NCBI RefSeq assembly: GCF_014197015.1
Contig: NZ_JACIET010000001.1
Location: 1,798,001 to 1,862,000 of the forward strand
DNA from: Niveibacterium umoris
Lineage (GTDB): Bacteria > Pseudomonadota > Gammaproteobacteria > Burkholderiales > Rhodocyclaceae
DNA length: 64,000 nucleotides
Reading direction: 5' to 3'
The position numbers were made by a program, and so were the translations under genes. This document shows positions 40,765-63,501 of the stretch, piece after piece (position 1 is the stretch's first letter; each line of letters starts with the position of its first letter). The notes under the pieces are model-generated. The model worked only from the letters and a program-made list of their open reading frames with translations, was not told the origin of the DNA and ran no database searches.

Positions 40765-42581
40765 CCGCCCGCATGAATCGGCTGGTCTGCCGCTTCGACC
40801 CGACCGCGATTGACCCGACACAGGATTTCGCACCTACACCAGGCGGCGATCTCACGATAGACCGCAGGGGGCTTTTCCTCGAAGCAAGCGGCGCCGACAT
40901 CCGTTTCGCGATCTCTGCGCGCCAGTTACTCGTGTTGTTCGGACGCCCCCATGCCCGTGAGTCGGGTCTGGATGCGGCGCTGAAGCGCGAAGGCCCTGGC
41001 GCCTTGCTGGCCGGCATGGGAACGTCCCCGGCAACGCTGGCCAACGCGCTGGGCGGCCGATTCGCCCTGCTCTGGATCGACCTGGACAAATCATGCATCG
41101 CCGGTCTGACCGACCGGTTCGGAACGCATCCAATCTGCTGGTCTCGCGAGGGCGGCGCCTTGCTGCTGGGCTCGCGTGCAGAACTCGTGCCACGCGCCGC
41201 ACGCGAAGTCGATCCGCAGGCGATATTCGATTTCCTGTACTTTCACGTCATCCCAGCGCCGCGCACGATTTTCCGCGGGACGCTTCGGCTTGAGCCCGGC
41301 CACCTGCTGACCGCGGACCGCACAGGACAGCGCGATGTTGCCTGGTGGCAGCCACGTTTCACACAAACGCCGGTAAGCGATCTGCCCGCATTGGAAGCAC
41401 GCTTCCGCGATGGCATTCGAGACGCAGTCGCTCGTGAGGTGGCAGGAGACGCCCGCACAGCAGCCTTCCTCTCGGGCGGTACCGACAGTTCCACCGTCAT
41501 CGGCATGATGAAGGCGGCAAAGGAAGGGGCTCCGCGGGGCTACTCGATCGGTTTCGATGCCGCGGGTTACGACGAAATGGAATACGCGCGCATCGCCGCA
41601 CGTGCCTACGGCGTCGATCACCGTGAGTACTACATCACCGCGCAGGACTTGGTACGCAACATTCCGGCAGTGGCCGCCCATTACGACCAGCCATTCGGCA
41701 ACTCGTCCGCGCTCCCCGCCTTCTGCCTTGCTCGACTGGCAAGGGAAGACGGCTACGACAAGCTGCTTGCCGGCGACGGGGGTGATGAACTCTTTGGCGG
41801 CAACTCGCGTTACGCGAAACAGAAGGTCTTCGAGATCTACCGCGCGATTCCTGGCCTCCTACGCGCAGGACTGCTCGATCCAATTGCCAGAGCAACCTGG
41901 TCACAAGGCGTTCCCGGGCTAGCGAAAGTCAGCAGCTATGTGAAGCAGGCACAGATGTCGCCACTGGCCCGCACCGAGCAATATAACCTTCTGCAACGCC
42001 TTGGACGTGACTCTGTGCTGCATCCTGCCTTCGCCGCGCACACGGACGCAGATGCTCCGCTCAGGTTGCGGCGGATGGTCTGGGATGGCATTGCCGCAGA
42101 TACCGTGCTCGACCGCGAACTTGGTTTCGACTGGCGCTTCACGCTCGCCGACAATGACTTGCCGAAGGTGATCGGCACTACGTCGCTCGCAGGGCTCGAC
42201 GTCGGCTTCCCGCTCCTGAGCGAGGAACTGCTCGATATTTCGCTCGCGCTGCCCGATCACTACAAACTCAAGGGCTTTCAGCTTCGCTGGTTCTTCAAGG
42301 ACGCGCTGCGCGACTTCTTACCCGCGGAAATCCTGAGCAAGAAGAAGCACGGCTTCGGGCTCCCGTTCGGGCATTGGGCGCTGACCGACCCGGCACTGAA
42401 GCGGCTTTCCGAAGAATCGCTCAACGGGCTGGTCGAACGCCGCTTGCTCAACGGACACTTTGTAGGTGACCTGTTCAGCAAGTTACTGCCCGCGCACCCC
42501 GGCTACTACGGGGAGATGGTGTGGATTGGCATGATGCTGGAGCAATGGCTGCGGGCCAACGCACCTCAAACCCGCTTCTGA
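40761..42581 (+). CDS. asparagine-synthase-like protein lacking the glutaminase cysteine
   Basis: A 606-residue protein built like AsnB but starting MTARMNRLVCRFDPT, with no Met-Cys-Gly-Ile N-terminus, so the Ntn glutaminase half cannot release ammonia from glutamine. The synthetase half is intact: PP-loop AAFLSGGTDSSTVIG (near residue 235), LLAGDGGDELFGG, and LSKKKHGFGLPFGHW. It should still adenylate a carboxylate and could join it to an amine directly, as beta-lactam synthetase does. Overlap with the decarboxylase gene (ATGA) suggests that its amine could be the product of that enzyme, which is inference. It is the last gene of the rightward operon and faces the leftward operon with only 4 bases between stop codons. 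Confidence 0.83.
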   Translation: MTARMNRLVCRFDPTAIDPTQDFAPTPGGDLTIDRRGLFLEASGADIRFAISARQLLVLFGRPHARESGLDAALKREGPGALLAGMGTSPATLANALGGRFALLWIDLDKSCIAGLTDRFGTHPICWSREGGALLLGSRAELVPRAAREVDPQAIFDFLYFHVIPAPRTIFRGTLRLEPGHLLTADRTGQRDVAWWQPRFTQTPVSDLPALEARFRDGIRDAVAREVAGDARTAAFLSGGTDSSTVIGMMKAAKEGAPRGYSIGFDAAGYDEMEYARIAARAYGVDHREYYITAQDLVRNIPAVAAHYDQPFGNSSALPAFCLARLAREDGYDKLLAGDGGDELFGGNSRYAKQKVFEIYRAIPGLLRAGLLDPIARATWSQGVPGLAKVSSYVKQAQMSPLARTEQYNLLQRLGRDSVLHPAFAAHTDADAPLRLRRMVWDGIAADTVLDRELGFDWRFTLADNDLPKVIGTTSLAGLDVGFPLLSEELLDISLALPDHYKLKGFQLRWFFKDALRDFLPAEILSKKKHGFGLPFGHWALTDPALKRLSEESLNGLVERRLLNGHFVGDLFSKLLPAHPGYYGEMVWIGMMLEQWLRANAPQTRF

Positions 42582-61409: not shown

Positions 61410-62027
61410 TCAGAACCAACCCTGAGGGATGATCAGGACGTCACCCGGGCGCATATCCACATTTGCTGATACGTCACCGCGCTTGAGCAGATCTTTCAGG
61501 CGAACGCTGTACTGCTTGCCGCCTTCAGCCGTCCTGAGAATGCTGGCCTTGTTGCCATCGGCGAAATCGGTAATGCCCCCGACAGCGATCATCACGTCAA
61601 GCAGACTCATCTTCTGCTTGTACGGAAGAATCTGCGGCTTGGCGGCTTCGCCAACAACACGGATCTGCTCGCTGTAAGGCCCCACAAATCCGGTCACGAC
61701 CACGGTGACAATGGGATCCCGAATGTATTTGGCAAGCGCCTTCTCGATGTCCCGCGCAAGCGTTGATGCATCCTTGCCCATCGCAGGCAGATCCTCAACG
61801 AGCGGCGTCGTGATCTTGCCGTCAGGGCGAACCGGCACCGTCATCGATAGTTCGGGGTTGCGCCAGACCACTATATTCAAGGCATCGCCAGCGCCGATGA
61901 TGTAGTTGTAGTCAGTTGACGCCGCACCGGAAGGCGCTGGCGGATACTGGGTCGCACACGCCCCGAGAAGTAAACTCAGCGCCGTGGCGAACAACATCGC
62001 ACCAAGGCTAGACATATTGCGAGTCAT
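61410..62027 (-). CDS. XrtA-associated polysaccharide export lipoprotein (Wza-like)
   Basis: A 205-residue outer-membrane export protein. The signal is lipoprotein type, with the lipobox LLLGAC and the acceptor Cys near residue 23. A polysaccharide-export domain follows (DYNYIIGAGDALNIVVWRNPELSMTVPVRPDGKITTPLVED) and an SLBB domain (VVGEAAKPQILPYKQKMSLLDVMIAVGGITDFADGNKASI), ending in RPGDVLIIPQGWF. The ATG at 62027 follows aaagggg; earlier in-frame starts would displace the signal. It is the first gene of the leftward operon and divergent from the PEP-CTERM gene. Confidence 0.94.
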   Translation of the reverse strand: MTRNMSSLGAMLFATALSLLLGACATQYPPAPSGAASTDYNYIIGAGDALNIVVWRNPELSMTVPVRPDGKITTPLVEDLPAMGKDASTLARDIEKALAKYIRDPIVTVVVTGFVGPYSEQIRVVGEAAKPQILPYKQKMSLLDVMIAVGGITDFADGNKASILRTAEGGKQYSVRLKDLLKRGDVSANVDMRPGDVLIIPQGWF

Positions 62028-62364
62028 TGCAGGCCCCTTTTTTGATATGTCCGACAAACGGTATGCGCCGCATGTTACGCCATGGGCTTCGCGGACTGCG
62101 CCAAAAATGGCACAGAACATGCGCTGTACGGCGCGCTGCATTGTCGAAAGGTCTGCGCCTCCTAAGAAGCCACTGAGTCGACCCTGCCCGCTGTCTGAAT
62201 TTCTTACACCACCAATCCGTAACGCGAAATCGAAACGCACAAGACACGATTAACTCTTTTTTTTTCAACAACTTAAGAACTTTCACCCATCCTGGCACGC
62301 TGTCTGCTTTATGGGCTGTGAGCGGCAAGCGGGCCGCAGTTAGTGAATCGCTAGGAGATCAAAA
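62028..62364. promoter_or_regulatory. divergent control region of export operon and PEP-CTERM gene
   Basis: This 337-base region drives the leftward export operon and the rightward PEP-CTERM gene. It holds an AT-rich core (62250-62285), the near-consensus sigma-54 element at 62293-62307, and a weaker one at 62108-62122 with the same orientation. I did not find a clear sigma-54 element pointing towards the export operon. Confidence 0.6.
62293..62307 (+). promoter_or_regulatory. sigma-54 promoter of the PEP-CTERM gene
   Basis: TGGCACGCTGTCTGC fits TGGCACR-N4-TTGC in all but two positions: C instead of T at position 12, and the base after TGGCAC is G as expected. GG and GC lie exactly 12 bases apart as required for the -24/-12 elements. 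Transcription would start near 62319, giving a leader of about 46 bases before the ATG with ribosome-binding site aggaga. Confidence 0.75.
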
Positions 62365-63108
62365 ATGAAATCGTTCAAGATGGGGGTGCTCGGTGCTTGC
62401 GTAGCCCTCGCCTTCAGCGGCGCTGCCTCCGCCTCGCTGATCAATGTCGGCGGAGTGATCTGGGATCCGGACGCTGCGACCGACTATTCAAGCCAGTCGC
62501 TCAACATGCGCCAGTTCATCAACACGTCGACTGGCGAACTCTCCGGCTTTGGCATTATCCAGGCTTGGAACGGCACTGGGCCTTCGTCTTTCTGCCCGGG
62601 ATGCGAAGTGACCTTCCAATTCGGCGGCTACACTCCGGTTGGTGGCGTTATTCTTCCGGCAGTTGGCCAAACAGTCTTTTACAAGAGCGGCTGGACGAAG
62701 TTCTATGTCGGCAGTGGTACCGATAAGGATGTAGCGAATCCGTTCGACTACAACGCTCTGACGTGGGCTAACACTGGGAATGGCACGCTGTTCCTGGATC
62801 TGCTCGCACATACCGATAGCACGTCTGGCTTCACGCTGACGGGCACGAACGTCGGCGGTATTTTGCTGAGCGGCTTGGGTACCTTTGATGTCATCGGTGG
62901 GCTGGCTGCAAGCAACTTCAACACCAATACGCAAGCTGACGGCGCTGACCTGGGCTTCACCACTTCTCTCTCGTTCAAGCGTGGAAGTGTGGCCGACGTT
63001 TCCGGCACTGGCAATCTGGTCGGGGATTCAATCCCCGAACCGGGCACGCTCACACTGTTGGGTGCAGCGCTTCTGGGTGCTGGTCTGGCACGCCGCAAGG
63101 TACGCTGA
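62365..63108 (+). CDS. PEP-CTERM sorting domain protein
   Basis: A 247-residue exported protein with a signal peptide (GVLGACVALAFSGAASA), a Gly/Thr/Asn-rich beta-strand mature part of no known catalytic family, and the tripartite sorting tail: SIPEPGTLTLLG with the Pro-Glu-Pro motif, a hydrophobic helix (LTLLGAALLGAGLA), and a basic end (RRKVR). Exosortase A should recognise this tail, cleave near the Pro-Glu-Pro and release or attach the protein. The mature part has a single Cys pair in FCPGCEVTF. A sigma-54 element lies upstream and a terminator downstream, so it is a single-gene unit. Confidence 0.94.
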   Translation: MKSFKMGVLGACVALAFSGAASASLINVGGVIWDPDAATDYSSQSLNMRQFINTSTGELSGFGIIQAWNGTGPSSFCPGCEVTFQFGGYTPVGGVILPAVGQTVFYKSGWTKFYVGSGTDKDVANPFDYNALTWANTGNGTLFLDLLAHTDSTSGFTLTGTNVGGILLSGLGTFDVIGGLAASNFNTNTQADGADLGFTTSLSFKRGSVADVSGTGNLVGDSIPEPGTLTLLGAALLGAGLARRKVR

Positions 63109-63134
63109 TAGCCACGAGATAATCGCTATAACGC

Positions 63135-63163
63135 AAAACGGCCTCAAAAGAGGCCGTTTTTTT
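63135..63163 (+). terminator. intrinsic terminator after the PEP-CTERM gene
   Basis: CGGCCTC and GAGGCCG form a stem around AAAA, followed by TTTTTTT and preceded by AAAA. Confidence 0.9.
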
Positions 63164-63501
63164 GTGTCTGCAGCCTTCACGCAGAAGTATCCGACCCTTG
63201 CGAGTTCGTATCAGCCGCGCTTTGCACGCCGCATCTACCCTGCCCGTGATGATCACAACTTGCTGATCGAGCTAGCAAACAGCGACTGTGAGCGGCTGCT
63301 AGACTCACGCGCCGTTGGGGATGATTCTAGGCGCCCCGCATCGAAGCACACGCGCTTGGCGCGAATTCACAGCTCAGAGCGCGGATTGTGCTGCTTTCTT
63401 TGAACTCCCAACTGAATCTCGCCGCTCGCGTCGCGCATCGTTTCAGGGCACTCCATTGACGCCCTATCGGCGGCCCACATGCCGACGCAGTCCGAGTTTC
63501 G
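63164..63501. other. intergenic region at the right end of the exopolysaccharide island
   Basis: No gene, RNA or repeat was recognised. It is bordered by the terminator of the PEP-CTERM gene and the stop codon of a leftward flavoprotein gene. Confidence 0.4.

Follow-up and report, generated by a model that had tools for sequence, protein, structure and literature searches.

A predicted PrsR/sigma-54 promoter of the PEP-CTERM regulon in Niveibacterium umoris and the spacing of its elements among relatives

The question raised by this locus is how the PEP-CTERM surface protein gene near the end of the analysed stretch of N. umoris DNA (64,000 nt, hereafter the window) is switched on. The initial annotation proposed that a near-consensus sigma-54 promoter drives it, and linked its expression to RpoN and the PrsK/PrsR two-component system. 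Haft et al. 2006 (PMC1569441) describe a module of this kind before proteobacterial PEP-CTERM genes and link it to PrsK and PrsR: a 17-nt motif with TTTACA at its end (motif 1) is followed by a spacer (mean 62.8, SD 10.6, range 32–92 nt) and a sigma-54 motif (motif 2). Judging from sequence comparison, the elements at 62293–62307 and 62192–62208 very probably form a PrsR/sigma-54 promoter of the PEP-CTERM regulon. The features of the locus are as follows.

62192..62208, + strand: putative PrsR (activator) site, Haft motif 1, TGTCTGAATTTCTTACA, a TGT-N11-ACA 17-mer (matrix scan, conservation)
62209..62292, + strand: 84-nt spacer, on the approximately 11-bp ladder 52/63/74/84/96 of relatives (spacing comparison)
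62257..62265, + strand: T9 run on the IHF-like site's A/T-tract side (sequence)
62263..62275, + strand: IHF-like candidate site TTTCAACAACTTA, one mismatch from WATCAANNNNTTR, its end 17 nt upstream of TGGC (consensus scan)
62293..62307, + strand: sigma-54 -24/-12 element TGGCACGCTGTCTGC, Haft motif 2 (sequence, weight matrix, conservation)
62319, + strand: predicted transcription start (from spacing, the C of GC taken as -12)
62353..62357, + strand: Shine-Dalgarno sequence AGGAG (sequence)
62365..63108, + strand: PEP-CTERM surface protein gene, 247 aa, ATG at 62365 (ORF and Pfam profile)
63135..63160, + strand: intrinsic-terminator-like hairpin (terminator scan)

The sigma-54 element stands as annotated. 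It differs from TGGCACGN4TTGC by one mismatch, its GG and GC are ten bases apart, and it is flanked by C on the 5' side and TT on the 3' side; the GG-N10-GC frame with TGGCAC- and TTGC-like boxes before a gene is the pattern of a -24/-12 promoter. Its orientation and distance also proved right, since it lies on the plus strand 57 nt from the ATG (23–221 nt between motif 2 and the start in the Haft module). The product of the gene, which looks monocistronic, scores 25.4 bits against the PEP-CTERM profile PF07589 (cut-off 20.7). On the other side of the intergenic region, an XrtA/PEP-CTERM exopolysaccharide export operon (TIGR03027, TIGR03007, TIGR03018) is transcribed away, and its divergent export gene has no sigma-54 site of its own on the minus strand (best 3.6 bits). 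By a sigma-54 weight matrix, TGGCACGCTGTCTGC ranks second of 127,968 window positions. The top match, at 41178–41192 (minus strand), lies within a 606-aa coding ORF, presumably an asparagine-synthase-like sequence, and is taken as chance. The intergenic region of TGGCACGCTGTCTGC contains another match, TGGCACAGAACATGC at 62108–62122; this too is ascribed to chance because it is not kept in a related genome (G002), where the alignment reads TGACACGG...

The activator motif TGTCTGAATTTCTTACA upstream of TGGCACGCTGTCTGC was absent from the initial annotation. Its last six bases, CTTACA, are one off TTTACA; its distance of 84 nt from motif 2 is within the published range, and its position 5 is T, versus G in 90% of the training set. 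A protein search found matches to the window's PEP-CTERM protein in four of 61 related genomes, the own genome included; a search of named genomes returned no relative. In G002, the locus is syntenic (78% in the alignment of the neighbouring operon), and both elements are kept within mostly diverged intergenic DNA as TGTCYGAWTTYYTTACACCA and CTGGCAC-N5-CTGCTT, the counterpart of motif 1 being TGTCCGATTTCTTTACA. A 50%-identical homologue is located at another place in G003; TGTCGGCGGACTTTACG and CTGGCACCCGCCATGCTTAGT precede it, separated by a 63-nt spacer.

To see how far the module extends within N. umoris, we followed the genome scan of PEP-CTERM genes suggested by the initial annotation. 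The PF07589 search put 21 places over the cut-off and one under it; the 20 upstream regions analysed belong to 19 genes above the cut-off and to L042 below it, L031 and L033 being left out with unclear start codons. Using matrices derived from 59 modules of other genera, with spacing unscored, the full module was detected in eight of these regions (scores 24–40) and was absent from the other 12, where the best score was 13.7; the maximum in 400 shuffles was 14.5. The window's module is the highest of all (39.7). The eight spacers (84, 74, 63, 72, 42, 62, 64 and 61 nt) are on the ladder described below or at most 2 nt off it, even with spacing left out of the score.

The regulators were expected outside the window, and both are encoded on contig 4 of the same genome, where prsK (C4:113789-115795) and prsR (C4:115858-117186) are adjacent and exceed their curated cut-offs. 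PrsR combines a receiver with a GAFTGA-containing sigma-54 AAA+ domain and a Fis-type helix-turn-helix, and the genome has one rpoN. The proposed link to RpoN and PrsK/PrsR is thereby supported: the annotated element matches motif 2 of the published module and is accompanied by motif 1. Of the 61 related genomes, 21 contain the strict module (63 places, versus 2 for the reversed control) and 23 contain PrsK, with at most the best 15 candidates per genome scored; both occur together in 19 (Fisher p 5e-10). Within the same best 15 candidates, G027 and G041 have the module with PrsK absent at E 1e-80, and four of the 23 PrsK genomes (G003, G005, G006 and G018) lack the strict pattern, G003 having a relaxed form.

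Looping between DNA-bound proteins on one face of the helix, with whole-turn spacing, is established for NtrC-type activators. A scan of 399 genomes of the order for the strict pattern, allowing gaps of 26–56, 57–87 or 88–118 nt, gave matches in 54, 104 and 48 genomes, respectively (reversed controls gave 7, 9 and 12 matches). The spacing set consists of the 293 matches listed (69, 150 and 74 by gap class, the 150 of the 57–87 class being a count among the matches listed), some of which, notably those with spacers of 27–44 nt, are chance matches in coding DNA. Among these 293 places, the spacers cluster at 52, 63, 74, 84 and 94–98 nt, with few or none at 45–48, 56–59, 67–72, 79–80 and 89–92; the best period is about 11.0 bp (R 0.61), and a jitter null never exceeded 0.17. 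With one place per genus (62 genera), the mean R is 0.53 (Rayleigh z 17.8), and after removal of the 60–66 peak it is still 0.46 (55 genera). Of 119 loci, 62 have a PEP-CTERM gene by a strict rule at most 320 nt downstream, and R is 0.74 for these versus 0.42 for the other 57; among 100 further loci, 72 have such a gene. The commonest spacer is 63 nt, the window's being 84. Whole-turn spacing of activator site and promoter would be required by looping between proteins bound to one face of the DNA.

We then considered what lies within the gap. Of the spacers of 62 PEP-CTERM modules, 39 contain a match to the IHF consensus with no more than one mismatch (8.8 in shuffles) and nine a perfect match (0.6 in shuffles), the shuffle tests here and below ignoring relatedness among modules. 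These sites have two orientations and occupy a few places before TGGC, those of the same orientation being about one turn apart. The places were fixed for testing as the forward form ending 5–8 or 16–19 nt before TGGC and the reverse form at 18–20 or 29–31 nt. The test set of 100 further modules, hand-picked from places not fetched before with several per genome, is a fair test of the place rule only, since the first 80 letters had been visible when the IHF idea arose: 56 of its 72 sites were in the predicted places versus 2.5 in shuffles (maximum 7 in 400). In the same set, 62 modules have an IHF-like site (shuffles 16.3, maximum 28), and 17 have a perfect one (shuffles 1.1, maximum 6).

The places differ between spacing classes. 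With spacers of 60–66 nt, the forward place 5–8 or the reverse 18–20 is used in 52 of the 61 modules with a site (both sets together), and with spacers of 81–88 nt, the forward place 16–19 is used in 11 of 16; therefore, for the forward form, both arms appear one turn longer at 84 than at 63 nt. TTTCAACAACTTA sits where the 84-nt class predicts, and perfect sites of that class occur in two relatives (L061 and L098). Within the own genome, a site with at most one mismatch is found in two of eight modules, those of the window and L027; since L027 alone shares it with the window, IHF help would not be general there. We consider it probable that the PrsR regulon obeys a strict geometric grammar of whole-turn gaps (about 42, 52, 63, 74, 84 and 96 nt), with an IHF bend in one of a few fixed, phase-matched places that moves one turn upstream from 63 to 84 nt as both arms gain one turn.

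For the window's promoter, one can suggest that RNA polymerase with RpoN waits at 62293–62307, that a signal through PrsK leads phosphorylated PrsR to bind the 17-mer at 62192–62208, and that the bound PrsR contacts the polymerase via a DNA loop so that the promoter opens at about 62319. The geometry of such a loop would place the activator site a whole number of helical turns from the promoter, here 84 nt, two turns over 63. IHF would bend the gap DNA in many members and probably also here, at 62263–62275. Binding by PrsR, RpoN and IHF, the looping and the start site are all what we infer from DNA sequence; for the action of IHF at the window's own promoter, our opinion leans only slightly in favour.

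Other explanations should be weighed against this PrsR/sigma-54 promoter. The sigma-54 string could be a chance match, the gene being served by an ordinary sigma-70 promoter. Indeed, a sigma-54-like string by itself proves nothing: window matches with at most two mismatches to the consensus are at the chance level (38 seen, 34.8 expected), and TGGCACN6TGC is not enriched genome-wide (77 occurrences versus 105 for the reversed control). The element rises above chance through its position, partner motif and conservation, the paired motifs far exceeding the shuffle maximum, while a scan of 62000–63300 gave no sigma-70-like site, and the best in a separate scan was 7/12; a chance origin is hardly credible. 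It is also very unlikely that the promoter is a sigma-54 one governed by another of the several NtrC-family activators in the genome. The PrsR model has 48 matches there, nine of them with at least 283 bits, and three loci (L023, L029 and L042) have sigma-54 sites with no motif 1, which speaks for such control; only one match is over the cut-off, however, the window does have motif 1 within the allowed range of distances, and the pair of motif 1 and promoter tracks PrsK across the 61 genomes.

An alternative that accepts the promoter as described assigns the gap element to intrinsic A/T-rich curvature or to HU instead of an IHF site. This is a tentative possibility, to which we give rather less credence than to IHF: the spacers are A/T-rich (mean 0.64), the window candidate has one mismatch, and in six of the eight own modules every candidate has more than one mismatch. 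Against it, the 13-mer in relatives is enriched over dinucleotide shuffles and sits at fixed places, perfect sites numbering 17 of 100 in the test set versus 1.1 expected. An activating role for IHF is itself opposed by Geobacter sulfurreducens, from a distant group, in which a PEP-motif gene is up, not down, in ihf mutants.

The promoter proposed for the window is already known in kind from published work. The locus resembles the PEP-CTERM module (PrsK/PrsR/PrsT) of Haft et al. 2006 in having motif 1, a spacer, motif 2 and a PEP-CTERM gene, with PrsK and PrsR in the genome. For pepA of Aquincola tertiaricarbonis, Xia et al. 2023 (PMC9850573) report a mapped start, TGGCAC and CTGCTT boxes and RpoN1 dependence, so that both genes have a TGGCAC...CTGCTT-type promoter; the window protein is not PepA by the model test, since it scores 22.2 bits against NF033554 (cut-off 80). 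PMC9012009 reports floc loss in prsK and prsR mutants of Zoogloea resiniphila and the dependence of a PEP-CTERM gene on RpoN and PrsK-PrsR. IHF between an activator and a sigma-54 promoter is a classic general arrangement (PMC7057263), and IHF-assisted NtrC/NifA-type promoters (nifH, Pu) share the order proposed here: activator upstream, IHF bend, -24/-12 promoter. They differ in activator and target genes, while the PEP-CTERM layout forms a ladder over many genera.

What the comparison with relatives suggests beyond print is the whole-turn spacing and the IHF-like gap site. A term search of Haft et al. 2006 gave neither spacing quantisation nor IHF, and "helical" in one reference title only; in the literature covered by our search, with most subscription papers outside it, neither the ladder nor an IHF site at PEP-CTERM promoters was found. 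PEP-CTERM proteins hold flocs and biofilms together, including those of activated sludge, and their expression determines whether the exopolysaccharide remains attached. With the window, the PEP-CTERM regulon gains a well-supported member; the ladder and bend site offer a simple picture of how PrsR may reach the polymerase, with IHF a likely third player, and would sharpen genome searches for the PrsR regulon. If true, the geometric grammar would rank among the clearest natural records of face-of-the-helix enhancer looping, across tens of genera.

Several additional observations concern the regulon's borders. L023, L029 and L042 have strong sigma-54 sites before PEP-CTERM or PEP-like genes, that of L029 (G000:C1, site 851 of the reverse-complemented locus), TTGGCACGTGGATTGCA, being the full consensus; perhaps another activator drives these genes. 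G041 has three strict modules (L079 and two more places) and no PrsK at E 1e-80 among the best 15 of 70 candidates; PrsK may have been missed or replaced there. In-phase modules precede non-PEP-CTERM genes in L062, L126, L176, L177 and other loci, and a gene for a 72-aa protein in both G050 and G307; these are possibly further members of the PrsR regulon. By eye, some modules with spacers of 94–98 nt repeat a TTTACA-like sequence about 22 nt further downstream, which would fit two copies of motif 1 spaced by two turns.
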